Of a stretch of DNA of 64,000 nucleotides, positions 886-15,813 are shown piece by piece (position 1 is the stretch's first letter; each line of letters opens with the position of its first letter). Below the pieces are notes generated by a model. The model had not been told where the DNA came from. It was given only the letters and a program-made list of their open reading frames with translations, and ran no database searches. The DNA is from Kosakonia radicincitans DSM 16656. GTDB taxonomy: Bacteria > Pseudomonadota > Gammaproteobacteria > Enterobacterales > Enterobacteriaceae. Position numbers and translations under genes: made by a program. The stretch spans positions 5,208,001 to 5,272,000 of the forward strand of contig NZ_CP018016.1 in the NCBI RefSeq assembly GCF_000280495.2. The letters are read 5' to 3'.

Positions 886-941
886 TGGCATGCCGTAATA
901 AATATTGATTTCAGAGAAAGTCTCATTTAAGCTCAATCCAT

Positions 942-1004
942 AAGGTGATGGTGCTCCACCTTTCCCAACCGCCAGTACTTTCAAACTGGATGATGACGCC
1001 TGAT
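942..1004 (+). promoter_or_regulatory. fluoride riboswitch (crcB motif), copy 1
   Basis: The sequence reads GGTGATGGTGCTCCACC, then CCCAACCGCC, a hairpin CCAGT-ACTTTCAA-ACTGG, and GATGATGACGCCTGATAT. This is the layout of the crcB-motif fluoride aptamer: P1 (GGTG/CACC), a conserved AACCGCC joint, a variable P2, and a 3' GATGACGCC tail that can pseudoknot with the P1 loop. The ppaC copy at 12508-12566 has the same conserved blocks but a different P2 (CCCC/GGGG), so the stem covaries between copies. Downstream the sequence ATGTCAGG follows in both copies. Here no good ribosome site follows and the next coding sequence is decayed, so what it still controls (perhaps the small membrane protein and gpmA) is uncertain. 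Confidence 0.85.
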
Positions 1005-1277
1005 ATACAATATCGCTGTTTCCTTTTAAGCATGTATGTCAGGTGTTTCTATGCGAAATTCAGACAATTTCTTCTCATTCCACAAAACGCCCTTGTCAAA
1101 ATGTTCTCTTTTCATTCATGTTATTGGGCTGCGCTACACTGTCTGTAGTGTTCCAGCTTCGGCCGACCCGCTTAACCACATCGGCGGACCAGCCCCCCAT
1201 TATCGTCCAGGAAAATTCACCTGCTCGACAACGAAGAATCAAGAAACCATCACCACATTACGTGAAATTTCGGACCT

Positions 1278-1440
1278 GAATAATGACGCATTCGTTTGCG
1301 GACTTCGTTACAGTCGTCTAAAAACTGGTGCCCCCTGCGGCAGAGAGCGCATTGAAAAATACAATCAGTTGAGCGTATTGAAAACGCTATGGGTGAGGCG
1401 GCAGTCTTTATCGGTAAGCCAGCCTTTAAAAAAGCCAGTC
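1278..1440 (+). pseudogene. C-terminal enolase fragment
   Basis: The frame at 1318-1371 gives LKTGAPCGRERIEKYNQL, nearly identical to the C-terminal segment LKTGAPCRGERIEKYNQL of the intact enolase at 7328-8617. Just after this a one-base change shifts the frame; read in the next frame it continues RIENAMGEAAVFIGKP, a plausible enolase tail that differs from the intact gene. The upstream part (DAFVCGL) may correspond to the DTFIADM segment with a deletion. The rest of the gene is missing. It lies on the plus strand, so it is a separate decayed eno copy, following the first fluoride riboswitch. Confidence 0.75.
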
Positions 1441-1488
1441 CTGTACCTACCCCATACCTTCGATCTGGGGGCTATAAGGAGGTCCTCT

Positions 1489-1686
1489 GTGAATCCTAAA
1501 ATACTCTTACTATCAACGGTCATCGGAATACTGACAACTTGTCTGGTTTTCCTAATCTCAGATGTATTTTTTTCCGCACTTCCTGATGATTACGTGGCAA
1601 TCGCTATTGCCCTTTTCATCGGGAGTAGCAGCCATTTGCTGGTCCGCCATTTTCTCAGCAGAACATCGAAAAAAAAAGGTTATTAA
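1489..1686 (+). CDS. small two-helix membrane protein
   Basis: A 65-residue protein starting at GTG 1489, five bases after a strong AAGGAGG site. It has a hydrophobic segment at residues 4-24 (ILLLSTVIGILTTCLVFLIS) and a second around 31-49, ending in a basic tail SRTSKKKGY. No family is recognised. It lies between the enolase remnant and the phosphoglycerate mutase gene, 67 bases before the latter, and could be co-transcribed with it from the first fluoride riboswitch. The longer open frame extending upstream to 1036 runs through the enolase remnant, so I take the GTG with the good ribosome site as the start. Confidence 0.5.
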   Translation: MNPKILLLSTVIGILTTCLVFLISDVFFSALPDDYVAIAIALFIGSSSHLLVRHFLSRTSKKKGY

Positions 1687-1753
1687 ACGTGAATGCCAGG
1701 AAAACCCTGGCAATTTATTGATACGTACTATTAACAACAACGGGTTCTGGGTC

Positions 1754-2440
1754 ATGGGAAAAATAATTTTGCTCCGACATGGCGAAAGTGAATGGAATCA
1801 GCAAAATCGTTTTACAGGATGGACAGACGTTACGCTGACCAGGAGAGGAGAAGAAGAAGCCCGACATGCAGCCAGGCTCATAAAACAGGCTGGTATACAG
1901 ATAGATTCAGCCTGTACATCTGTTCTCAACCGGGCAATACATTCACTTTGGTTGATAATGGAGACACTGAACCTGTTATGGCTGCCAGTGAGTAAAACCT
2001 GGCGGTTGAATGAACGTCATTATGGCGCCCTGCAAGGGATGAGGAAAGATGAAGCGGCACAACAAATGGGCGAGGAACTGGTGTATCACTGGCGAAAAAG
2101 TTACCGAGGTATTCCGCCTTTGCTTGCGGCAGCCCCACAACTTCTCCATCGCGAAGCCCGCTATCACCATATTGCTCTGTCAGATCTCCCAAAAGGTGAA
2201 AGTCTTGAGATGGCACTACGAAGAGTTATACCTTACTGGCAGCATGTCATCGCTCCCCGCGTCGTCAGCGGAGAAACATTATTACTGATCGGCCATGCCA
2301 ATATGCTTCGGGCTCTGACAATGTACCTTGAGCAGACAGACGAAAATAATGTAATGGATCTGCATATCCCTACGGGTGTCCCAGTCCTTTATGAAATGAG
2401 CGAAGACAAAACCATCAGTGGTCGCTATATACTGGAGTAA
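1754..2440 (+). CDS. gpmA: 2,3-bisphosphoglycerate-dependent phosphoglycerate mutase
   Basis: A 228-residue histidine phosphatase-superfamily enzyme interconverting 3- and 2-phosphoglycerate, the step just before enolase. It begins MGKIILLRHGESEWN with the phospho-accepting His in RHG, followed by NRFTGWTDVTLTRRG, the RLNERHYGALQG motif, and a C-terminal LLIGHANMLRAL where housekeeping GpmA normally has AHGNSLRAL, so it is a diverged paralogue. Length is close to the family norm of about 250. The ribosome site is weak. It is likely cargo of the fluoride module: enolase inhibition by fluoride perturbs the phosphoglycerate pool and an extra mutase may help. Whether it is still under fluoride control depends on the decayed leader upstream. 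Confidence 0.85.
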   Translation: MGKIILLRHGESEWNQQNRFTGWTDVTLTRRGEEEARHAARLIKQAGIQIDSACTSVLNRAIHSLWLIMETLNLLWLPVSKTWRLNERHYGALQGMRKDEAAQQMGEELVYHWRKSYRGIPPLLAAAPQLLHREARYHHIALSDLPKGESLEMALRRVIPYWQHVIAPRVVSGETLLLIGHANMLRALTMYLEQTDENNVMDLHIPTGVPVLYEMSEDKTISGRYILE

Positions 2441-2764: not shown

Positions 2765-4273
2765 TCATGCAAGCTCATCAGATGTAAAAACCGCCTGATA
2801 TAAGTCTTCACCAAAGCTAGTATCCATCGGTGCTCCCTCCTCGATCCTGAACGTCCTTTCACCATCGTCTCGTCTTTCAGCACACAGATATTCGGTATCT
2901 GGATGGAATTCCTGATAAAACGCGCAGGCAAACTCTGAACAATGGGTAACAAAAAAAATTTTTACCCTGCTCTCTGCAAGCGCCATCACAATCCCCCTGA
3001 TAATATCAGCCCCTTCCCGGCTGTTGGTCGCTGAAAACGACTCATTGAACAGGACAAGATCGTCTTGTTCCAGAAGATCAACGATATCGCGCATACGCAG
3101 GAGCTCTTCATCCAGTTTTCCACTAACCATAGAGCTATCCTCTTCACACTTATAGTGAGTAAAGATTTGACCGCAAATATTGGTACAGAAATACTCAGCC
3201 ACGACAAACATTCCGCTTTGCATCATTATCTGTGCCAGTCCAATACTACGTAAAAAGGTAGACTTCCCGCCCTGATTTGCACCGGTAATAATGAATGTGT
3301 TTTTATTATCAGTCTTTAATGTATTGCCGACGATATTCTTGTCTGATGTAAGCCCCAGACAAACATCATACAACGATTCAAAAACCAGACGACGCTCTCG
3401 TTTATATACAGGAACAGGGAAACACTGGGGTAAATTGCGTTTATTTAATTCTTCAGCAAGGTTAATGCAGCACACATAAAATCCTAGCTCTGCACGCAGT
3501 GATTTGAAAAAATTCCGTAAATGCTCTGTAGACTGCGCCATTGCACTAGCAACCAGTACCAGTCCCTCATCCCGTAAATCGCTAAGTGCTCTGAAGCCAT
3601 TTTCATCACGAGGGGCTATTTGAACCGAGTAATGTTCAGGTCTCCTTGAGAAAATGCGCCTGAACCAGCACTTATCCGGCGAGTTGGGTTCTCTGAGAAT
3701 ATACTCGTCTCCACGACTTCCCGGACCAAGCTTGGCACTCATTAATACGCCTCTTTTGAAGTCCATCTGTTTAAGATGTTCTTCTATACCCCTCAGATAA
3801 TCCTCATTCAGTTCCTGGATAATCATCTTCAGGAGGCGTGTCATTCCGGATGAATCAAAAAAATAAATATTTTTTTCAGCAATAGCTCTGACTTTCTTTA
3901 AATTTTCAAGAAAAAAACGAGTGAAGGAAATTGACTGATGAAGCATTGCTGAGGGGGAATGACCAAATACAATGTAGTGAAGTTTTTCTTTCTCCATCGC
4001 CAGGCACTCAACAACCGCCTGATAAAATTCACTGATAATATTTGAGTTATAAAGACAGTCACGCAAAATAGCCTGTCTGTACTCAATACACGGAACGTCA
4101 GCAAGCGACTGAGAACAGGCTTTTTCGACCACTGAATATAAAAACTCATCCCCAGCAGAAAGACTCTGGAATAATACATCCAACCCCAGATCTCTCACCT
4201 GGATATTGAAATTATCCGGGAAGATATCATCCAAAACAAAATCAGCATCTTTATACATCAGATATACGTTCAT
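2765..4273 (-). CDS. stand-alone MutS-like ATPase (second of a pair)
   Basis: A 502-residue protein with a C-terminal MutS domain V-type ATPase. Walker A is FIITGANQGGKSTFLRSIGL (around residues 330-349); the region LVLFNESFSATNSREGAD corresponds to Walker B and the following motif of MutS, with Asn where MutS has the catalytic-site Asp; a switch-like FFVTHCSEF follows. The mismatch-recognition domain I of true MutS is absent. The start ATG overlaps the stop of the upstream MutS-like gene by four bases, so the two are translationally coupled and probably form a heterodimer. Placement downstream of crcB and usp suggests co-inheritance with fluoride tolerance; its function is unknown to me. Base composition is lower in GC than the conjugation genes. 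Confidence 0.75.
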   Translation of the reverse strand: MNVYLMYKDADFVLDDIFPDNFNIQVRDLGLDVLFQSLSAGDEFLYSVVEKACSQSLADVPCIEYRQAILRDCLYNSNIISEFYQAVVECLAMEKEKLHYIVFGHSPSAMLHQSISFTRFFLENLKKVRAIAEKNIYFFDSSGMTRLLKMIIQELNEDYLRGIEEHLKQMDFKRGVLMSAKLGPGSRGDEYILREPNSPDKCWFRRIFSRRPEHYSVQIAPRDENGFRALSDLRDEGLVLVASAMAQSTEHLRNFFKSLRAELGFYVCCINLAEELNKRNLPQCFPVPVYKRERRLVFESLYDVCLGLTSDKNIVGNTLKTDNKNTFIITGANQGGKSTFLRSIGLAQIMMQSGMFVVAEYFCTNICGQIFTHYKCEEDSSMVSGKLDEELLRMRDIVDLLEQDDLVLFNESFSATNSREGADIIRGIVMALAESRVKIFFVTHCSEFACAFYQEFHPDTEYLCAERRDDGERTFRIEEGAPMDTSFGEDLYQAVFTSDELA

Positions 4274-5808
4274 CCATTCAACTCCCCTTTTATTTTTTCA
4301 TATGTCAGACCATACTTCTGAACCAATGTCGCTGACCACGCCACGCCATCCGAAGGTTTTCTGGCAATCCTGTAGGTTCGTGAAGCCCTTTCATCATTTT
4401 CCACCGTACTCATCATACTGACGATAGCCCGATCCAGTCTGGTGAGTTCATCGATAAAAGTCACACATACACAAAGTGCATCCAGCATCACTATTTTTTT
4501 AATAATTTGGGTTCCAAGGTATAACGCGTCGTGTGAAGTTGTTGAGGTAAAAATCTCATTCATGATAATAAGGCTTTTTGATGTAGCCACATCAAGTATA
4601 GATTTGATCCGTACAAGGTCGTCATACAATTTACCCCTAAAATCATGAATATTTTCGCTTTTTTCAAAATGAGTAAAAATATTATCGACCAGAAACAAAT
4701 TCGCATCCTCTGCGGGAACGTATAGCCCCAGCAAAGCCAGATAGTGCAACTGTCCGATCATTCTGGCAAATGTGGTTTTCCCTCCCTGATTAGGGCCAGA
4801 AACAACTAAAATGCGTTCACGTTCCCGCAACTGAAAATCATTACATACTACATTCTCTTTTTTCTTCAGAAGTGAATAAGCAAGAGCCAGATCAAATCCG
4901 TTGGTGACTGTTATATTTTTATTATTAACATTTATCTCAGGAATACAAAATGATAATCCAGCGTTCTGAAAGTTGCGGAAATATTCGATGCTGGCAAGAT
5001 AAAACTGGATTTCACGTTCAAAAATGTTCAGTGTATGACTCTGATAATCGCTTCTGGTTTCAATAAACGTATCGAGTTCAGAAAAAACAGACGGAAAAAG
5101 TCTGGCAACGCACTCCAGAATCCTGGCTTCAACATTAGTCATGACAGTGTCATGACTCTTAAAATCAAGTTTAACCGTTACATCACGTTGTTTGAATTTT
5201 GAGAAAACACTAATAATCTTATCGCTATAGTTTATTTCATCTGCATGGTGTTCCACATTGATTGTGTCACCTTTAATTCTGAGATTATAGCGAATTCCCT
5301 CAAGATTATCTTTTATCCGGCTTGCCATTGCGGATAAACTTTTGAAATTCTCACTATCAATGTATCCGGAAAGATAATTTCTAAAATTTGTCATACCGGA
5401 CGACCGAAGTAACAACGAGCTTAAATGCTCCCGGAATTTTGTAACCGACTGACAATAAAGTAGTATACACTCAAGTTCCCAACGTTTTTGCTGATAATGA
5501 TAGTACCGGCACTCCTTTTTCCCAGAAATCTCTCTAATTTTCTGCATGTCAGATGAGAATTCCTTTATAGCACTATAGAGATTTTCATTTCCAACATCCT
5601 GAATTATGCCCTGCCGATAGTAGATATCGTCAAGATATTCTAATGGTGAATAAAAAAATGGTTTAATATTATACACTTCCCGATCATGAGTTATCGAAGT
5701 GATAACTTTATCAAGGTTCAAATCAGCAAAACATGCAGGTTCATTTTTTCTGAGTGTATGCTGACGGTTTCCGTCGAGTGTGGCATACAATATGCTTATA
5801 AATTCCAT
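4270..5808 (-). CDS. stand-alone MutS-like ATPase (first of a pair)
   Basis: A 512-residue protein from an ATG at 5808 preceded by GGAG at six bases; an upstream in-frame ATG at 5871 lacks such a site. Like its partner it has MutS domain V features: Walker A VVSGPNQGGKTTFARMIGQL, then SLIIMNEIFTSTTSHDALYL for the Walker B/signature region, again Asn instead of the expected Asp, and a long helical N-terminal half (lever/clamp-like) without a mismatch-binding domain. The gene is AT-rich relative to most of the window, suggesting a separate origin. It overlaps the next MutS-like gene by four bases. MutS-related families that carry N-E at Walker B exist in other bacteria, but a biochemical role is not established here. 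Confidence 0.75.
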   Translation of the reverse strand: MEFISILYATLDGNRQHTLRKNEPACFADLNLDKVITSITHDREVYNIKPFFYSPLEYLDDIYYRQGIIQDVGNENLYSAIKEFSSDMQKIREISGKKECRYYHYQQKRWELECILLYCQSVTKFREHLSSLLLRSSGMTNFRNYLSGYIDSENFKSLSAMASRIKDNLEGIRYNLRIKGDTINVEHHADEINYSDKIISVFSKFKQRDVTVKLDFKSHDTVMTNVEARILECVARLFPSVFSELDTFIETRSDYQSHTLNIFEREIQFYLASIEYFRNFQNAGLSFCIPEINVNNKNITVTNGFDLALAYSLLKKKENVVCNDFQLRERERILVVSGPNQGGKTTFARMIGQLHYLALLGLYVPAEDANLFLVDNIFTHFEKSENIHDFRGKLYDDLVRIKSILDVATSKSLIIMNEIFTSTTSHDALYLGTQIIKKIVMLDALCVCVTFIDELTRLDRAIVSMMSTVENDERASRTYRIARKPSDGVAWSATLVQKYGLTYEKIKGELNG

Positions 5809-5925
5809 CTTTTCTCCAGACTGACTTTGTTGCCATATTATCCATTGAATATAAAAATCATTTACATTCACATATTAAATTGCATGACATGCTAAAATGG
5901 TCACAGTATAAAAATGGAGGCTATC

Positions 5926-6856: not shown

Positions 6857-7246
6857 TTATGCAAGTAATGTTATCAGATAAAAACCCGCCGCGGTCATGA
6901 GCAGCGACCCTACCACATGCACCAGTACGGAAGTGAAGGCCCACAAGTAATTCCCCACCTGCAATAATGTGAAGACCTCTACAGAGAATGTAGAAAAGGT
7001 TGTCAGCCCGCCACACAGACCGGTAACAATCAGCAGTTTCCAGGCTGGATCCAACTGAGGGTGGCGCATAAAATAGGCCATTGCGGCACCGATGATAAAA
7101 GCCCCCAGCAGGTTAACCACCAGAGTTCCGGGCGGAAGCGATGGAAAGAAACTGTTGAGCTTAACTCCAAAAAACCAGCGGATGACACAACCCACAGCCC
7201 CGCCAATCATAATTGCTGACAACTGACCCAATGCCGCATTCCTCAT
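6857..7246 (-). CDS. crcB: fluoride ion channel/exporter CrcB (Fluc)
   Basis: A 129-residue four-helix membrane protein that lets fluoride leave the cell as a dual-topology homodimer. The Fluc signatures are all present: GGAVGCVIRWFFG near the N-terminus, GTLVVNLLGAFIIGA with the conserved Asn in helix 2, and TGLCGGLTTFSTFSVE in helix 3 carrying the TTFST phenylalanine-box sequence. Length matches the family. It lies 81 bases downstream of eno in the same direction and was the last clear member of the riboswitch-ppaC-usp-eno-crcB operon before the IS66 insertion. Export of fluoride is the direct resistance function; the neighbouring enzymes would bypass targets. Confidence 0.95.
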   Translation of the reverse strand: MRNAALGQLSAIMIGGAVGCVIRWFFGVKLNSFFPSLPPGTLVVNLLGAFIIGAAMAYFMRHPQLDPAWKLLIVTGLCGGLTTFSTFSVEVFTLLQVGNYLWAFTSVLVHVVGSLLMTAAGFYLITLLA

Positions 7247-7327
7247 CTAAGGTGAATATAAATTCTGAACCAGGATGTATGCCGGATTCAGCCGACATAC
7301 ATCCTTCAAATACCGTTATGATTTCAG

Positions 7328-8617
7328 TCAACCACGGCGAACAAATGCCTTAATACCCGCATAACGGGCTTCACTGCCCAGTTCCTGCTCGATGCGCATA
7401 AGCTGATTGTATTTTTCAATGCGTTCGCCGCGGCATGGCGCGCCGGTTTTCAGATGCCCCGCCCGCAATGCCACCGTCATGTCGGCGATAAACGTGTCCA
7501 TGGTTTCACCGCTGCGGTGCGAAATAAAAGCGCCCCATCCGTGTTCATGACACAGTGAAACCGCGTCGAACGTCTCGCTCAACGTACCAATCTGGTTGAG
7601 TTTGATGAGCGCCGCGCTGGCCAGGTTTTCTTCAATACCCCGGCGGATATACTTCACATTCGTTACGAAAAGGTCGTCACCGACCAGTTCAGCGCGTCCG
7701 CCAAGTTTCTCATGCAGATGTTTCCAGCCAGCCCAGTCATCCTCAGCGAGCCCGTCTTCAAGCAGGACAATAGGGAACTGGCTCATCAGTTCACCATAAT
7801 AATCCGTCATCTGTTCAGCGCTCAGGGCACTGTTTTCGGTGCGAAGGTGATATTTCCCGTCACGGTAAAATTCGCTGGATGCCGGGTCCATACAGATACT
7901 GATATCTTCCCCCGGTCGGTAACCGGCTTTCTCAATAGCCTGAACAATGAATTCCAGAGGCTCACGGTTCGAGGAGACGGCCGGGGCAAATCCCCCTTCA
8001 TCACCCACCGCAGCGGAGAGGTTCCGGGACAGAAGGATCTGGCGCAGGGCCTGATAGACTTCACTGCCCTGACGAACGGCCTCTGTCAGCGATGACGCAC
8101 CGTGCGGTGCTATCATGAATTCCTGAAAATCGGCTCCCTGACCACGGGCATGAACGCCACCGTTAATAATATTCATGCACGGAACCGGCAAAAGACTGGC
8201 GTTGAGTCCGCCGAGATAGCGGTAAAGTGGCTGACGGGTGACCTGAGCGGCCAGTCTGGCCACCGCCAGCGAAACACCCAGAATGGCATTGGCACCAAGT
8301 CGGCTTTTGTTCTCCGTACCGTCCAGTTCCCGCATCAGATTATCCAGTCGCCGCTGCTCCCGCACATCGGTTCCCCTGACGGCGTCGCAAATTTCTGTCT
8401 CCACGGCCTTAACGGCATCACGGACTCCTTTCCCGCCGAAACGCCCGGGATCACCATCGCGGCGTTCAGTTGCCTCTCTTGAGCCGGTACTGGCCCCGGA
8501 CGGTACCGATGCACGTGCCATCTGACCATCTGAAGTAAAAGCGTCCACCTCAACCGTGGGATTACCGCGAGAGTCGAGAATTTCGCGGGCCGTGACTTTT
8601 TCAAGTAGAAAATTCAT
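7328..8617 (-). CDS. eno: enolase (accessory paralogue)
   Basis: A 429-residue enolase, converting 2-phosphoglycerate to phosphoenolpyruvate. Key motifs are intact: VPSGASTGSREATERRDG (mobile loop 1 with Ser), VGDEGGFAP (catalytic Glu), SICMDPASSEF, VLLEDGLAEDDW and LVGDDLFVTN (the Mg-binding Asp/Glu/Asp), LIKLNQIGTLSET (catalytic Lys) and FISHRSGETMDTFIADM. It ends with an unusual LKTGAPCRGERIEKYNQL rather than the typical LKTGSLSRSDR. Enolase is a classic fluoride target (Mg-fluoride-phosphate complex), so a spare or less sensitive copy beside crcB makes sense; whether it is less sensitive cannot be read from sequence. It starts 17 bases after the usp fragment. Confidence 0.93.
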   Translation of the reverse strand: MNFLLEKVTAREILDSRGNPTVEVDAFTSDGQMARASVPSGASTGSREATERRDGDPGRFGGKGVRDAVKAVETEICDAVRGTDVREQRRLDNLMRELDGTENKSRLGANAILGVSLAVARLAAQVTRQPLYRYLGGLNASLLPVPCMNIINGGVHARGQGADFQEFMIAPHGASSLTEAVRQGSEVYQALRQILLSRNLSAAVGDEGGFAPAVSSNREPLEFIVQAIEKAGYRPGEDISICMDPASSEFYRDGKYHLRTENSALSAEQMTDYYGELMSQFPIVLLEDGLAEDDWAGWKHLHEKLGGRAELVGDDLFVTNVKYIRRGIEENLASAALIKLNQIGTLSETFDAVSLCHEHGWGAFISHRSGETMDTFIADMTVALRAGHLKTGAPCRGERIEKYNQLMRIEQELGSEARYAGIKAFVRRG

Positions 8618-8633: not shown

Positions 8634-8969
8634 TCAGTCGTGAATGTGTTTAATCAGAACGTCTACGTTCAGGTGGTTAACGTATTCAGCCGAACGGGAC
8701 GTCAGTGCTCCCATAAAACGGTTCCGGTGGCCTGCAATCACCAGGTCCACACCGGTGTCGGTAATGCATTTCTGTACATCTTCAAAACGCCGCATGGTGA
8801 CCAGCTCACGCGCGTCAACGTGCTCCGCCACAGAGGACGTCAGCTCACTGAACAACGCCTTCGCCTGAACAACGTCTTTTGATACGGCATCGTCCATCAG
8901 GCCGTCCGATATGTAGTTCATCTCCCGATAGTCATTACAGATATGAGCAAGTGTGATGTTCATTTGCAG
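8634..8969 (-). pseudogene. universal stress protein, 3' part, split by IS66 insertion
   Basis: This is the C-terminal about 111 residues of a UspA-type protein (MNITLAHICNDYREMNY to the stop, with the motif GHRNRFMGALTSRSAEYV). Its 5' part is at 11424-11521. Joining the two pieces at the 8-bp duplicated target restores a seamless 141-residue frame starting MKIYTHALVLVQGKEDG, which aligns with E. coli UspA length. A frame beginning inside the insertion element (ATG at 9011) could still yield a hybrid of 125 residues, but it lacks the first strand and loop of the Usp fold. The motif departs from the ATP-binding Usp consensus, as in UspA itself. Confidence 0.9.
8962..8969 (+). repeat. target site duplication of the IS66 element, left copy
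   Basis: ATTTGCAG immediately left of the element, identical to the bases right of it (11424-11431). An 8-bp duplication is normal for IS66-family transposition. Confidence 0.95.
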
Positions 8970-9061
8970 GTAAGCGTACAGCGTGAACCGTCTGGTCATA
9001 ATCTGATGCATCCGACAAAGTGGTGTCCACCAAATAAGTAGTGGGAACCAAAGTGTCAGAT

Positions 9062-9454
9062 ATGCAGAAAAATGTGACTCCCGGCAGGCGTAAGGGCTGC
9101 CCTAATTATTCTCCTGAGTTTAAACATCAGCTCGTTGCCGCCTCCTGCGAACCCGGGATATCCATCTCAAAACTGGCGCTTGAGAATGGCATTAACGCCA
9201 ATCTGTTGTTCAAATGGCGTCAGCAGTGGCGTGAAGGTAAACTCCTGCTGCCTTCGACAGACCTTCCCCAGCTACTTCCTGTAACACTCGACGCCCCTGC
9301 TGGACCACTGGCGGTGCAGTCAGAACTGCCAGCAGAAGAGCCGGAGACCCTCAATATCACCTGTGAGGTGGCATTCCGGCACGGAACGCTCCACCTCAAC
9401 GGAACTGTCAGCGAAAAACTCCTGACTCTTCTGATACAGGAGCTCAAACGGTGA
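9062..9454 (+). CDS. tnpA: IS66 family TnpA (OrfA), HTH protein
   Basis: A 130-residue protein (from ATG 9062; a GTG at 9041 is also in frame) with the IS3/IS66-type helix-turn-helix: PNYSPEFKHQLVAASCEPGI then SISKLALENGINANLLFKWR. The C-terminal half is acidic and less conserved. It is the first gene of the element; its stop codon overlaps the GTG start of tnpB, the coupled arrangement normal in IS66 elements. Confidence 0.92.
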   Translation: MQKNVTPGRRKGCPNYSPEFKHQLVAASCEPGISISKLALENGINANLLFKWRQQWREGKLLLPSTDLPQLLPVTLDAPAGPLAVQSELPAEEPETLNITCEVAFRHGTLHLNGTVSEKLLTLLIQELKR

Positions 9455-9798
9455 TCCCGTTACCAACAGGCACCAAAATCTGGCTGGTTGCCGGTATCAC
9501 CGACATGCGCAACGGCTTCAATGGTCTCGCCACAAAGGTGCAGACGATGCTGAAAGACGATCCGATGTCCGGCCATGTCTTCATCTTCCGGGGCCGCAGC
9601 GGCAGTCAGGTCAAACTGCTGTGGTCTACCGGTGACGGGCTGTGCTTGCTGACAAAACGGCTGGAGCGCGGCCGCTTCGCGTGGCCGTCAGCACGCGATG
9701 GCAAAGTGTTCCTGACGCCGGCGCAGCTGGCGATGCTGATGGAAGGTATCGACTGGAGACAGCCAAAGCGGTTGCTGACATCCCTGACCATGTTGTAG
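9451..9798 (+). CDS. tnpB: IS66 family accessory protein TnpB (OrfB)
   Basis: A 115-residue IS66 Orf2-like protein, with the family signature IWLVAGITDMRNGFNGLAT and the later HVFIFRGRSGSQVKLL and RFAWPS segments. Required with TnpA and TnpC for transposition of this family, by an unclear mechanism. The GTG start at 9451 overlaps the tnpA stop. Length is normal. Confidence 0.94.
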   Translation: MIPLPTGTKIWLVAGITDMRNGFNGLATKVQTMLKDDPMSGHVFIFRGRSGSQVKLLWSTGDGLCLLTKRLERGRFAWPSARDGKVFLTPAQLAMLMEGIDWRQPKRLLTSLTML

Positions 9799-9847
9799 GC
9801 CTCTTTATCCTGGTTGTTGCAGAATAAGCCTGGTAAAATATGGGCCT

Positions 9848-11386
9848 ATGAATGACACCTCTTCTGACGACATCCTTCTGCTGAAACAGCGCCTGGCCGA
9901 ACAGGAAGCGTTGATCCACGCCCTGCAGGAAAAGCTGAGTAACCGGGAGCGTGAAATAGACCATCTGCAGGCACAGCTGGATAAGCTCCGCCGAATGAAC
10001 TTCGGCAGTCGTTCCGAAAAGGTCTCCCGCCGTATCGCACAGATGGAAGCTGACCTGAACCGGCTTCAGAAAGAAAGCGATACGCTGACTGGTCGGGTAG
10101 ATGATCCGGCAGTGCAGCGTCCGCTGCGTCAGACCCGCACCCGCAGACCGTTCCCCGAATCACTCCCCCGTGATGAAAAACGGTTATTACCCGCAGAACC
10201 CTGCTGCCCGGAGTGTGGTGGCTTGCTGAGTTATCTGGGTGAGGATGCAGCCGAACAGCTGGAGCTGATGCGCAGCGCCTTCCAGGTTATCAGGACTGTA
10301 CGGGAAAAGCATGCCTGCACAAAATGCGATGCTATCGTACAGGCACCTGCGCCTTCGCGGCCCATCGAACGGGGCATCGCAGGGCCAGGACTGCTGGCCC
10401 GCGTGCTGACCTCAAAGTATGCAGAGCACACACCGCTGTATCGCCAGTCTGAAATATATAGCCGCCAGGGCATGGAACTGAGCCGCTCACTCCTGTCAGG
10501 CTGGGTGGATGCGTGCTGCCGGTTACTGTCACCGCTGGAAGAGGCGCTTCAGGACTATGTGCTGACTGACGGCAAGCTCCATGCTGATGACACGCCTGTC
10601 CCGGTGCTGTTGCCAGGTAATAAGAAAACGAAGACCGGGCGGTTGTGGACCTACGTTCGTGACGACCGTAACGCCGGGTCAGAGCTGGCGCCGGCGGTGT
10701 GGTTCGCTTACAGCCCGGACAGAAAAGGCATCCATCCGCAGACCCATCTTGCCGGCTTCAGCGGTGTGCTGCAGGCGGATGCGTACGCCGGGTTCAACGA
10801 GCTGTACCGCAATGGCCGGATAACGGAAGCCGCCTGCTGGGCTCACGCCCGCCGGAAGATCCACGATGTGCACGTCCGCACCCCGTCAGCCCTGACGGAA
10901 GAAGCCCTGAGGCAGATCGGTCAGTTGTACGCCATAGAGGCGAATATAAGGGGAATGCCGGCAGAGCAGCGGCTTGCTGAACGTCAGCAGAAAGCGAAAC
11001 CGCTGTTGAAATCCCTGGAAAGCTGGCTGCGTGAAAAGATGAAAATCCTGTCGCGACACTCGGAGCTGACAAAAGCGTTCGCGTACGCACTTAACCAGTG
11101 GCCGGCACTGACGTACTATGCGGAAGATGGTTGGGCCGAAGCAGACAACAACATCGCTGAAAATGCCCTGCGGACGGTCAGCCTGGGTCGTAAAAACTTC
11201 CTGTTCTTCGGTTCTGACCATGGTGGTGAGCGGGGAGCACTGCTGTACAGCCTGATCGGAACGTGCAAACTGAACAGCGTGGATCCAGAAGGCTACCTCC
11301 GCTATGTGCTTGACGTCATCGCCGACTGGCCGGTCAACCGGGTCAGCGAACTGCTACCCTGGCGCATCACACCGCCAACTGAATAA
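9848..11386 (+). CDS. tnpC: IS66 family transposase TnpC
   Basis: A 512-residue DDE transposase. The N-terminus is a coiled coil (LLKQRLAEQEALIHALQEKL) with the leucine-zipper-like character of the family; then a zinc-finger-like pair CCPECGG and CTKCDA; the catalytic core includes DDTPVPVL (first Asp near residue 245), LQADAYAGFNELY (second Asp) and ADNNIAENALRTVSLGRKNF (Glu and downstream signature). The C-terminus has NSVDPEGYLRYVL of the IS66 C-terminal domain. Apparently full length and intact. Confidence 0.96.
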   Translation: MNDTSSDDILLLKQRLAEQEALIHALQEKLSNREREIDHLQAQLDKLRRMNFGSRSEKVSRRIAQMEADLNRLQKESDTLTGRVDDPAVQRPLRQTRTRRPFPESLPRDEKRLLPAEPCCPECGGLLSYLGEDAAEQLELMRSAFQVIRTVREKHACTKCDAIVQAPAPSRPIERGIAGPGLLARVLTSKYAEHTPLYRQSEIYSRQGMELSRSLLSGWVDACCRLLSPLEEALQDYVLTDGKLHADDTPVPVLLPGNKKTKTGRLWTYVRDDRNAGSELAPAVWFAYSPDRKGIHPQTHLAGFSGVLQADAYAGFNELYRNGRITEAACWAHARRKIHDVHVRTPSALTEEALRQIGQLYAIEANIRGMPAEQRLAERQQKAKPLLKSLESWLREKMKILSRHSELTKAFAYALNQWPALTYYAEDGWAEADNNIAENALRTVSLGRKNFLFFGSDHGGERGALLYSLIGTCKLNSVDPEGYLRYVLDVIADWPVNRVSELLPWRITPPTE

Positions 11387-11423
11387 CACATCCCTGTCAA
11401 TACGGCCCTCGGTGTACGCTTAC

Positions 11424-11431
11424 ATTTGCAG
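11424..11431 (+). repeat. target site duplication of the IS66 element, right copy
   Basis: ATTTGCAG directly right of the terminal repeat, identical to 8962-8969. Confidence 0.95.
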
Positions 11432-11521
11432 CAGGCGGGACAGAGTTGCCGCCAGTGCGAGCAAGGGGACGCCATCCTCTTTCCCCTGAACAAGAACAAG
11501 TGCATGTGTGTAGATTTTCAT
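11424..11521 (-). pseudogene. universal stress protein, 5' part, split by IS66 insertion
   Basis: Minus-strand ATG at 11521 overlaps the TGA of ppaC (sequence ATGA), so this usp was translationally coupled to ppaC. It encodes MKIYTHALVLVQGKEDGV and about 14 more residues before the insertion. The frame continues without a break in the 3' piece at 8634-8969 once the element and one target copy are removed. Confidence 0.9.
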
Positions 11522-12426
11522 GGCTGTCTCCGGCTTTGATTGAGGAAGTGTTCCAGCCAGGGCAGAAGCTGTTTCTTCCGGCTGACCATGTCCGGCACGG
11601 AGCAGGGCGCCGCGTTGCCACTCTCCGGCCCGGCGAAATACAGTGTTGAAAAGTATTCACGGATATCAGTCACCATCAGCACGATAAGTCCGGCTCCGGT
11701 TGTCACCGCCATCTGCGCCATCGCATTTTGCAGTTCATCCAGTACGGGAGTGACCTGGCCTGGTGAACTCACCTCCAGTTGTGCGATACGCACATCCGTG
11801 CCGGCGAGCGAAAAGGTCTTAAGGTCTTTATGCAGAAGCTGTTCTGTGGACTGTCCGGTGATATCGGTTTTGGCTGCCAGTAGCCCGCGGGCAAACGCCT
11901 TACGTTTTACTCCCGACAGAACGCAGAGTTCAGTGGCTGTACGGATATCGTCTTCCGTCGTGGTGGGTGAGCGCAGATTAACGGTGTCGCTGAGCAGCGC
12001 GCCAAGAAGCAGGATGGCGTGAGTCGGGGGCATTGTGCGGCGCATTTCTGCATCCATCAGCAGCCAGAGTACTGTTGCGCTGCTGCCTGCCGGTTTTATC
12101 CAGACCTCCGGCGGCAGTTGCGTGACCAGACCGCCAAGCCGGTGATGGTCGATAATCCCGATGATATTGCTCTGGAGGAGATCAGCAGGCCCCTGTGCCG
12201 GTTCGGTAAAATCGACCAGCCATACCGGTTCACCTTTCAGTGGAATATCCAGCAGGGGCGGCAGGGAGAGCCCGGCAGCTTCAAAAATATAGCGTGTCTC
12301 AGGATTCGCTTCACCGGGCCGCCAGGCACGGGCAGGACGGTTACACCGGTTGAGCCAGCCCGCCGTCACGGCTGCGGTGCAGACAGCGTCGCTGTCAGGG
12401 TTAAGATGACCAAAAACATTAATCAA
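11518..12426 (-). CDS. ppaC: manganese-dependent (family II) inorganic pyrophosphatase
   Basis: A DHH-family enzyme hydrolysing pyrophosphate to phosphate. From the TTG at 12426 (after GGGGA at seven bases) it is 302 residues, begins MINVFGHLNPDSDAVCTA with the metal-binding H-x-N-P-D-x-D motif, and has VDFTEP, GIIDHHRLGG (the DHH triad) and PAGSSATVLW. A longer frame to TTG 12501 would overlap the riboswitch expression region and give an atypical N-terminus, so I prefer 12426. Family I pyrophosphatases bind Mg-fluoride and are strongly fluoride-inhibited; family II Mn enzymes could serve as a replacement (inference). First gene of the fluoride operon. Confidence 0.9.
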   Translation of the reverse strand: MINVFGHLNPDSDAVCTAAVTAGWLNRCNRPARAWRPGEANPETRYIFEAAGLSLPPLLDIPLKGEPVWLVDFTEPAQGPADLLQSNIIGIIDHHRLGGLVTQLPPEVWIKPAGSSATVLWLLMDAEMRRTMPPTHAILLLGALLSDTVNLRSPTTTEDDIRTATELCVLSGVKRKAFARGLLAAKTDITGQSTEQLLHKDLKTFSLAGTDVRIAQLEVSSPGQVTPVLDELQNAMAQMAVTTGAGLIVLMVTDIREYFSTLYFAGPESGNAAPCSVPDMVSRKKQLLPWLEHFLNQSRRQP

Positions 12427-12467
12427 AGATGTATCCCCGTTAAGGGAAGTACACAGGCCGGAAGGAT

Positions 12468-12492
12468 TTATCGACGGCCTGACATACCTCCT
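12468..12492 (-). promoter_or_regulatory. strong ribosome site with a five-codon leader frame
   Basis: On the minus strand AGGAGG (12492-12487) is followed at once by ATGTCAGGCCGTCGATAA, a five-codon frame MSGRR with its stop at 12470-12468, out of frame with ppaC and 41 bases ahead of the proposed ppaC start. The aptamer tail GCCTGA can pair with TCAGG of the ribosome site or with TCAGGC just after the ATG, so this is a likely expression platform. The same ATGTCAGG follows riboswitch copy 1 at 1036. Confidence 0.5.
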
Positions 12493-12507
12493 GAAAATCA
12501 AGAGTCA

Positions 12508-12566
12508 TATCAGGCGTCATCAGCCCCGGACGGGGCGGTTGGGAAAGGTGGAACGCCATCACCTTT
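12508..12566 (-). promoter_or_regulatory. fluoride riboswitch (crcB motif), copy 2, upstream of ppaC
   Basis: Minus strand: GGTGATGGCGTTCCACC, CCCAACCG, hairpin CCCC-gtcc-GGGG, then CTGATGACGCCTGATATG. Conserved blocks, order and spacing match the fluoride aptamer: P1 GGTG/CACC, loop GGCG able to pseudoknot with CGCC of the tail, and a variable P2. It lies directly before the ppaC operon, whose products (pyrophosphatase, usp, enolase, CrcB) are classic fluoride-riboswitch clients, so fluoride binding should turn the operon on. Confidence 0.93.
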
Positions 12567-12737
12567 AGAGACATCATAGCTCAACGCCTCTGGAAAGTCA
12601 GCAGACAAAGGCTTTTTCCTGTGCCCATGAAGGTGTATGGCTGAGAAAGGTAAGGTGTACAGCATTTACCGGAATTTACTCGCATTACAACGGTGCAGAT
12701 AAACGTTTGTGATAAAATTTTTTGCTTATCAATCATT

Positions 12738-12834
12738 TCAGGTGGGCGATGTCATGCAGGCAAGCCTGATAATGTCATCCACCAGGTGTTTTCACGGACA
12801 GATCCACGTTTTCCGCAGGAAAACAGCCTGGTCT
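12738..12834 (+). promoter_or_regulatory. structured nhaA 5' leader, candidate riboswitch
   Basis: Between the divergent fluoride operon and nhaA the plus strand has a stem GGTGG (12741-12745) with CCACC (12779-12783) enclosing a small hairpin CAGG-caag-CCTG. The 3' arm overlaps ACCAGG (12781-12786), which can instead pair with CCTGGT (12827-12832), enclosing a perfect hairpin GTTTTCC-gca-GGAAAAC (12808-12824). The two long-range pairings are mutually exclusive and end about 15 bases before the AAGGAGG of nhaA. Leader RNAs nhaA-I and nhaA-II, reported as lithium sensors, are known before nhaA genes; I cannot confirm a match to either consensus. Confidence 0.5.
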
Positions 12835-12856
12835 AAACATTCTGAAAGGAGGTTGT

Positions 12857-14026
<1,170 letters not shown>

Positions 14027-14154: not shown

Positions 14155-15813
14155 TTATTGACTCATTGACTCCGTAACCGCCTGCCAGGTTATAAATCCA
14201 CCGCTCAGATTATATGTCCGGAAGCCGTGAGCCTGCAGAATACGGTATGCCACATGCCCGCGCAGGCCACTCTGACAACCGATAAAAATATCTTTATCTT
14301 CAGGTAATTTTTCAAGATTCTCCCGCAGGGAATCAAGAGGGATGGATAGCGCGTCAGGATATTCACCAAATTGTTTCAGTTCTGCAGGAGACCGAATATC
14401 AACTAAACAATAACTGCCCGGTTCCCGTTGTAACACATCGCTGACATGACTGATGACCGTATCTCCCTTGATGACATTTGCCGCCACCATTCCAGCCTGG
14501 TTAACGACGTCCCTTGCACTGTTAAAAGGAGGAGCATAGGTCAGCTCCAGATGCTCGAGATCGTTGACGGTAAGCCCCGCGCGCTGTGCGACAGCCAGGA
14601 CATCGATGCGTTTATCAACCCCTTTTTTCCCTGACGCCTGGGCCCCGAGAATTTTACCGGTATCGGGGCTGAACAGCAGTTTCAGACTGATCATTGTTGC
14701 CCCCGGGTAGTAACTGGCATGATCAGCGGCATGGACGTAAACCTTCTCGTATCGGGTACCATGGGCTTTCAGCTGCTTTTCATTCGCCCCGACACTGCCA
14801 ATACTCAGCGAAAATACCTTACAAATGGATGTCCCCTGACTGCCATGGTAAAAGCTGTGACGATCGAGCATATTGTCAGCAGCAATGCGTCCCTGGCGGT
14901 TGGCTGGCCCTGCCAGAGGAACATTAGCGGGTTCCTGAAAGACAAGGTCAGGTGTTTCAACTGCATCCCCCACGGCGTAGATGTCAGGGATACTTGTCTG
15001 CATACAGGCATTGACACTTATGCCTCCCCGTTTACCCACGGCGAGCCCGGCTCCTGTGGCAAGGCTGCTCTCAGGTTTTACCCCGATGGCGAGAATAACC
15101 ATGTCGGTCTGCAGAAACCCACCGTCAGACAGTGCAACGCGGAATCCCGTCTCTGTCCGCAGTACCTCGGTGAGCGCCGTTCTGAGACGCAGATCAACGC
15201 CATGACTCCTGATTTCCTGATGCAGGGCCGATGCCATTTCAGGATCAACCGGAGCCATAACCTGTTCCCCCATCTCCAGCAGGGTCACACTGATCCCCCT
15301 TTCGCTCAGTGCCTCCATCACTTCGAGCCCGATAAATCCCCCCCCGACAAGCGTGGTGTGAGCGATTTTATGTTGCTCAATCCACGCCTGGATAGCATCC
15401 ATGTCAGTAAGATTTCGAAGCGTAAAGACACCCTCTTCCTGTAGTCCGGGCAAGGGGGGGACAACCGGAGCGGCACCGGTACTGAGGAGCAGACGATCCC
15501 ATTCTTCGGTATGGACCTCCCCGGAGGTCAGATTTTTAACCGTCACTGTCTTATTAACCGGGTCTACTGACGTCACTTCATGACGGATACGGACGTCTAT
15601 GTTAAAACGGGATTTAAAATCCTCCGGAGTTTTCAGAATCAGCGACTGCCTTAACGGAATTTTTCCGCCTATATGATAAGGCAATCCACAGTTGGCGAAA
15701 GAGACATCGCTTCCCCGCTCAAACACAACAATACTGACATCCTCTGATAACCGACGAGCCCTGGCTGCAGCGGATGCGCCCCCGGCAACACCACCAACAA
15801 TCACTATTTTCAT
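14155..15813 (-). CDS. CoA-disulfide reductase with C-terminal rhodanese domain
   Basis: A 552-residue FAD flavoprotein from ATG 15813 (MKIVIVGGVAGGASAAARAR, the Rossmann FAD loop). The active-site Cys is in VSFANCGLPYHIGG; NAD(P)H loop TTLVGGGFIGLEVMEAL; second FAD motif DIYAVGDAVETPD; then a dimerisation domain (LTYAPPFNSARDVVNQAG), and at about 455-550 a rhodanese domain with YCLVDIRSPAE and active loop FIGCQSGLRGHVAY (C-x-x-G-x-R). Such fusions reduce CoA disulfide or persulfide/polysulfide species and are linked to sulfide and persulfide handling. It is divergent from a two-cysteine ArsR-family regulator. A broken tail copy lies at 783-885. Confidence 0.88.
   Translation of the reverse strand: MKIVIVGGVAGGASAAARARRLSEDVSIVVFERGSDVSFANCGLPYHIGGKIPLRQSLILKTPEDFKSRFNIDVRIRHEVTSVDPVNKTVTVKNLTSGEVHTEEWDRLLLSTGAAPVVPPLPGLQEEGVFTLRNLTDMDAIQAWIEQHKIAHTTLVGGGFIGLEVMEALSERGISVTLLEMGEQVMAPVDPEMASALHQEIRSHGVDLRLRTALTEVLRTETGFRVALSDGGFLQTDMVILAIGVKPESSLATGAGLAVGKRGGISVNACMQTSIPDIYAVGDAVETPDLVFQEPANVPLAGPANRQGRIAADNMLDRHSFYHGSQGTSICKVFSLSIGSVGANEKQLKAHGTRYEKVYVHAADHASYYPGATMISLKLLFSPDTGKILGAQASGKKGVDKRIDVLAVAQRAGLTVNDLEHLELTYAPPFNSARDVVNQAGMVAANVIKGDTVISHVSDVLQREPGSYCLVDIRSPAELKQFGEYPDALSIPLDSLRENLEKLPEDKDIFIGCQSGLRGHVAYRILQAHGFRTYNLSGGFITWQAVTESMSQ

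Follow-up and report, generated by a model that had tools for sequence, protein, structure and literature searches.

Fluoride riboswitch in the ppaC leader of Kosakonia radicincitans DSM 16656 and its predicted three-strand expression platform

The ppaC leader of K. radicincitans DSM 16656 carries a fluoride riboswitch aptamer, followed by three strands (A, B, and C) that are predicted to form a two-way switch with mutually exclusive helices, and the same switch is predicted before ppaC, usp, and crcB genes of related leaders. Strand A contains the 3′ strand of the aptamer pseudoknot; because B can pair with A or with C and both helices are conserved, A and C compete for B. We estimate a probability of about 0.55 for the relay as a whole, in which the A:B pairing would be exchanged for B:C in the presence of fluoride and C would release the ppaC ribosome site (strand D). 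Both the sensor and the operon are already known, which makes the find an ordinary one. Aligning expression platforms is more difficult than aligning aptamers, and here dozens of close leaders share one. The window is the whole analyzed stretch of 64,000 nucleotides; its features are listed in Table 1.

Table 1. Positions of the features discussed in this study (window numbering)
Feature	Position	Strand	Details	Basis
Second fluoride riboswitch aptamer, RF01734	935..1009	+		44.4 bits (gathering 34)
Strand B of second leader	1033..1046	+	SD-like CAGG 1040-1043, 7 nt before ATG 1051	
Remains of FRM-type operon	1234..2440	+	eno 3′ remnant (from ~1234), gpmA-like gene (~1754-2440)	
crcB	6857..7246	-	fluoride exporter (Fluc)	Pfam, NCBIfam
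eno	7328..8617	-	enolase	Pfam
3′ piece of interrupted usp	8634..8969	-		comparison with second copy
IS66-family element	8970..11423	+	TnpB 9451-9798, transposase 9848-11386	profile matches, copy comparison
5′ piece of interrupted usp	11424..11521	-	ATG at 11521	comparison with second copy
ppaC	11518..12426	-	family II (DHH/DHHA2) inorganic pyrophosphatase, 302 aa from TTG 12426	Pfam, leader comparison
Strand D	12430..12438	-	GGGGAUACA, contains likely ppaC ribosome site GGGGA; able to pair with UGUACUUCCC	C:D support weak
Strand C	12446..12460	-	CGGCCUGUGUACUUC, second pairing option for B, in which one U of B is bulged	
Strand B	12473..12494	-	UCAGGAGGUAUGUCAGGCCGUC, 3′ arm of A:B hairpin; alternative partner C	
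Strand A	12498..12518	-	pseudoknot 3′ strand and tail, 5′ arm of A:B hairpin	
Pseudoknot 3′ strand	12513..12517	-	ACGCC	sequence, CM alignment
Fluoride riboswitch aptamer, RF01734	12504..12572	-		51.7 bits (gathering 34)
Sigma-70-like promoter	12573..12601	-	CTGACT-17-TATGAT	consensus match only

Fluoride aptamer upstream of ppaC

A search of the whole window against all Rfam families with cmscan gave only two matches at or above the gathering score, both to RF01734, the fluoride riboswitch, for which this score is 34 bits. The match at 12572–12504 on the minus strand had an E value of 2e-11 (5.3e-12 with a search space of 16.5 kb only) and was aligned to model positions 1–64, the full model, with every pair kept. 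The pseudoknot, read from the sequence and the covariance-model alignment, joins the loop GGCGT with ACGCC. By these features, the element is judged to be a true member of the known class. A preliminary description, made from the sequence without database searches, had proposed a fluoride riboswitch at 12508–12566, to be checked by a covariance search; that search has now been run and identified the same element.

The aptamer forms the 5′ leader of the fluoride-related gene ppaC, and the promoter-like sequence adjoins its 5′ side, ending at 12573 (one found, compared with a mean of 0.3 in shuffled sequences). Position, promoter-like sequence, and orientation support riboswitch control of ppaC, as had been proposed. 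Enolase and pyrophosphatase are named as fluoride targets in a review (PMC11139923).

Five RF01734 matches were found in the genome of this strain. The four over the cut-off are the two in the window, one before a second copy of ppaC, and one before another crcB. The riboswitch is common in the family, with matches over the cut-off in 127 of the 392 genomes searched. Genome searches yielded 25 ppaC relatives. A scan of 14 of them located the aptamer just upstream of ppaC in all 12 enterobacterial loci and in neither of the two archaeal loci.

Operon genes and the IS66 insertion

Pfam confirmed ppaC (DHH/DHHA2), eno, and crcB, and CrcB was also confirmed by NCBIfam. PpaC scored 261.8 bits against the NCBIfam Mn-pyrophosphatase model, below its cut-off of 283, and is thus a divergent member. 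The region 8634–9011 had no Pfam match by itself and proved to be the 3′ part of a usp gene that the second genome copy has in unbroken form. The gene content given in the preliminary description therefore held, usp by comparison with this intact copy. The genes ppaC-usp-eno-crcB are co-directional behind one fluoride riboswitch, and plasmids have the same order.

When aligned to the second copy (L219) and to a Klebsiella plasmid (L065), usp in the window proved to be interrupted by an insertion at 8970–11423, which the preliminary description had not noticed. From an overlap of 9 bases between the two alignments and the element ends GTAAGCG and CGCTTAC, the target duplication was read as 8 bp, ATTTGCAG, at 8962–8969 and 11424–11431. 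With the element inside usp, the ppaC promoter of the window copy is separated from eno and crcB, and ppaC-usp-eno-crcB is not an unbroken transcription unit there. Control of the whole gene set, which had also been proposed, is thus unsupported in this copy, where the transposase genes lie on the opposite strand; the reach of the switch would comprise ppaC and the truncated usp only. A horizontally spread resistance gene set is seen here rearranged by an insertion element.

The second copy contains intact ppaC-usp-eno, and its homology to the window ends at 7250, indicating that crcB is not adjacent to it. The two ppaC copies are 99.65% identical up to the 5′ edge of the aptamer (12565), and their upstream sequences are unrelated. 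Since the homology (11423–12565) ends at the aptamer, the promoter differs, and this, together with IS66 inside usp, would fit a relic, that is, an element left in a broken operon with a promoter region unlike that of its relatives. We consider this highly improbable, as neither ppaC nor its leader is damaged, both being nearly identical to the second copy, and a promoter-like sequence is present at the right place.

Start codon of ppaC

The longest ppaC open reading frame opens at TTG 12501. In homologous leaders, the position equivalent to TTG 12426 is occupied by ATG, GTG, or TTG, preceded by a purine-rich site, and public annotation of relatives agrees, placing the ppaC start about 140 nt past the aptamer edge. 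The likely start is TTG 12426–12424 behind GGGGA 12438–12434. The AGGAGG/ATG located about 60 nt upstream of TTG 12426 was rejected as the ppaC start, because the homologues start at the place of 12426.

Conservation of the A:B and B:C helices

The leader search gave 202 matches, 186 of them distinct, while 24 loci had no match to the pattern. Six named rows were excluded because the match was wrong or the start doubtful, leaving 180, and some crcB starts were reset by a short motif. The 140 leaders with a start formed 91 clusters, which with both window leaders make 93 rows; the cluster holding the window ppaC leader thus counts twice. B:C and C:D were tested on 89 rows, since the ribosome site lies inside B in the other four. 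Separately, 46 of the 186 leaders were hand-picked by eye for a common tail and B motif, and 43 of these (26 ppaC, 5 usp, and 12 crcB) were aligned by sequence only (alignment A1). The other three, with TAATGA for TGATGA in the aptamer, are in a trial alignment in which TGATGA was typed in front of them. Shuffles on A1 leave the relatedness of the leaders in place.

In the window, the A:B hairpin (12518–12473, approximately 20 bp) had a predicted energy of −25.7 kcal/mol. It contests the 3′ strand of the aptamer pseudoknot and thus constitutes a competing expression platform. Across the 43 leaders, A:B, in which the tail pairs with the AGG-ATGTCAGGC strand, was paired in 98.1% of cells, against 33–52% in slid versions, and its covariation score exceeded those of all 500 shuffles. 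Its stricter counts were unremarkable, with 63 and 209 of 500 shuffles as high for both-sided changes and pair types, respectively. B:C was paired in 99.3% of cells (slid versions, 24–55%); both-sided changes occurred at five of its seven pairs, a count reached by none of the 500 shuffles, and its 13 further pair types were equaled by one. On the ppaC rows alone, examined with our own script on the trial alignment, B:C was weaker by these stricter counts (29 and 236 of 500 shuffles).

Tests of single leaders against dinucleotide shuffles gave p ≤ 0.05 for A:B in 64 of 93, B:C in 40 of 89, and C:D in 17 of 89, where about four to five would be expected by chance. The best C:D partner overlapped the B:C partner in 81 of 89 leaders (expected, 61.9). 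Counting of C:D on the alignment was dropped owing to register shifts between leaders, and duplex tests were used instead, with weak results.

Two pairings of the tail had been suggested at the outset, and both exist in the sequence. That with ATGTCAGGC is the conserved A:B helix. The alternative, with TCAGG of the AGGAGG, was paired in only 71.5% of cells with no both-sided change and was rejected as a conserved switch. The proposed translation switch acting through AGGAGG and the leader ATG stood in part: AGGAGG-ATG belongs to the conserved strand B, but it is not the start of ppaC, and a role for the leader ATG is disfavored by its spacing of 1 nt from AGGAGG and by the 6 of 43 relatives that have no start codon there. 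At this place, relatives have ATG (34/43), GTG (3/43), GCG (5/43), or ACG (1/43), and GAGG directly precedes the triplet in 37 of 43. The prevalence of ATG or GTG and of GAGG would suit a ribosome site of a short leader open reading frame (MSGRR in the window), covered by A:B and freed by fluoride, whose translation would alter access to ppaC. We regard this as improbable, given the close spacing and the GCG or ACG triplets; the peptides vary from 4 to more than 20 aa and differ in sequence after MSG, and pairing with A and C explains both AGG and ATG.

Predicted mode of action and output

In the relay that we favor, the pseudoknot 3′ strand and tail (A) would pair with B in the absence of fluoride, forming the approximately 20-bp hairpin. 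With fluoride, the pseudoknot would hold the base of A and leave B free for C, and C, once taken by B, would no longer hide the ppaC ribosome site. Fluoride binding, the ON direction, and the opening of D by B:C formation are the inferred steps. The fluoride induction of mRNA reported for a related operon behind a riboswitch of this kind (PMC5533749) speaks in favor of this reading.

Hiding A in the folding model made the gene's ribosome site easier to open, with a mean gain of 1.26 kcal/mol in 93 rows, compared with 0.01 kcal/mol in shuffles. The change was above +1 in 42 of 93 rows and below −1 in nine (lowest, −4.3 kcal/mol). For the window ppaC leader, the modeled change was 0.0 kcal/mol (shuffles, 0.47 ± 1.75), and for the eight nearest ppaC rows (L007, L017, L036, L065, L073, L113, L135, and L143), it ranged from −1.8 to +1.4. 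The zero change reflects a modeled fold that keeps the distal half of A:B and leaves the site within C:D: with the pseudoknot locked, distal A:B (−14.0 kcal/mol) plus C:D still beats full B:C. Conservation of the helices thus favors the predicted relay, which the energy model fails to reproduce in the window leader. In a crcB leader of the same genome (L003), the opening change was 4.8 kcal/mol, and the A:B hairpin runs into UUUUUCUUUU.

A transcriptional output was also considered. Without fluoride, the free, C-rich and G-poor strand C would promote a Rho-dependent stop, and with fluoride, B would cover C; relatives may instead use an intrinsic terminator at A:B. The C-rich leader stretch and an mRNA rise reported for the FRM operon of Enterobacter cloacae (121- to 177-fold for ppaC, uspA, and eno with fluoride; PMC5533749) make Rho-dependent control possible. 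The segment from B to the ribosome site was richer in C than in G in 87 of 89 leaders; coding windows past the start showed such an excess in 23 of 89. Ten of the 93 rows, six of crcB and four of ppaC, had a U-tract (at least 6 T in 8) after A:B; within the alignment, one was present in 9 of 12 crcB, 1 of 26 ppaC, and 0 of 5 usp leaders. We nevertheless consider this output rather unlikely in the window leader, which has no U-tract after A:B (2 T in the 8 bases behind the B motif) and so falls outside the terminator type; the terminator scan listed no intrinsic terminator in 12300–12860. Moreover, an anti-ribosome-site strand needs a C-rich stretch too, and, judging from gene lengths, FRM seems to have another leader type (PpaC of 320 aa, cf. 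L063 and L221). The simple terminator scan did not list A:B of L003 either, and its U-tract was read from the sequence; the hairpin was probably missed through its interrupted stem and long loop.

B paired with the anti-SD letters at a mean of −7.06 kcal/mol, compared with −4.95 kcal/mol in shuffles (p ≤ 0.05 in 26 of 89; median p, 0.20), which gives weak ground for regarding B as a possible ribosome-site decoy outside the A1 group.

Returning to the three-strand platform, we tentatively suggest that it may be common to enterobacterial ppaC, usp, and crcB fluoride riboswitches, with B as a decoy swapping between A and C. The same core would act as a terminator in most crcB and a few ppaC leaders or as an anti-anti-ribosome-site relay in usp and most ppaC leaders, and the outputs would interconvert within one RNA lineage. 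The shared platform has compensatory changes, occurs on chromosomes and plasmids, and differs in output type, and a change from terminator to ribosome-site control is testable with a handful of natural variants.

Comparison with known systems

The E. cloacae FRM operon is described as ppaC-uspA-eno-gpmA-crcB-orf5249 with a riboswitch and gene lengths of 963 bp (ppaC), 429 bp (uspA), and 1287 bp (eno) (PMC5533749). As described there, it has the same enzymes, order, and riboswitch position as the window. Unlike FRM, the window has no gpmA between eno and crcB, its PpaC has 302 aa instead of 320 aa, and its usp is broken by IS66. By the gene lengths, the FRM leader would be of the type of the second aptamer in the window (935–1009), not of the ppaC leader. 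A gene set of the ppaC-usp-eno-crcB type is also reported on Pantoea plasmids (PMC5971314).

As described for the Bacillus cereus fluoride switch (PMC11077080), the pseudoknot strand is reused by a downstream hairpin; unlike that type, the hairpin in the window has no U-tract behind it, and B is contested by an additional strand, C. Covariation models of terminator-type fluoride switches are given in a 2026 study, which names the riboswitches of Pseudomonas syringae and Burkholderia pseudomallei as translational controls (PMC13273304). By description, the ppaC leader would resemble the latter two in its putative ribosome-site output without an intrinsic terminator and differs in its alternative B:C helix. 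Overlapping terminators were noted by Weinberg et al. in 2010, who list mutS, as a DNA repair gene, among the controlled genes (PMC2864571). In the open literature searched, mostly at listing level, no description of the A/B/C arrangement was found; it may be published.

Second aptamer and neighboring genes

In the second leader, B pairs with 996–1009 over 14 positions, two of them G-U, as read from the sequence. B itself is the ribosome site, and the modeled opening change of 10.0 kcal/mol was the clearest case. This leader is of the type found before a 320-aa PpaC (as in L063), with modeled direct hiding of the ribosome site, and would fit the translational type of P. syringae and B. pseudomallei directly. 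The region 935–2440 on the plus strand is a decayed second fluoride operon facing the ppaC operon.

Two tandem MutS-domain-V ATPases of 502 and 533 aa (2765–5871, minus strand), annotated elsewhere as MutS, are on the same strand as crcB and a second usp and downstream of both. The best NCBIfam match of the 502-aa protein was KamC (lysine 5,6-aminomutase reactivase; 78 bits, cut-off 300), and that of the 533-aa protein was MutS (96.6 bits, cut-off 480); KamC also matched most of the latter protein, at 65.8 bits. The family is large (E ≤ 1e-10 in 7926 of 8000 scored candidates); at the phylum level, two of 398 genomes, including that of this strain, had the gene at E ≤ 1e-40, too few for a distribution count. 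Twelve plasmid loci were chosen by hand from the hits to cover diverse taxa; in seven (Enterobacteriaceae, Burkholderiaceae, Alicyclobacillus, and Mycobacterium), the pair lay behind a fluoride riboswitch, either next after it at 33 to about 330 nt (L222, L223, L227, L228, and L231) or behind riboswitch-antiporter-usp (L221 and L233). A riboswitch was near the pair in two Rhodococcus loci and in Rubrobacter; none was found in the Tsukamurella and Streptomyces loci. One idea is that the pair might reactivate fluoride-inhibited enzymes; nothing relevant on KamB/KamC was found in the open literature.

A sub-threshold Rfam match to V_AS7 at 15626–15794 on the plus strand (50.4 bits, gathering 90) is antisense to a gene for a FAD-dependent oxidoreductase and probably reflects coding-sequence similarity. 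Divergent from the riboswitch, an nhaA-type Na+/H+ antiporter gene occupies 12857–14026 on the plus strand. Na+/H+ antiporters are named as riboswitch-associated in a review (PMC11139923), and nhaA also lies beside fluoride genes in L058 and L062.
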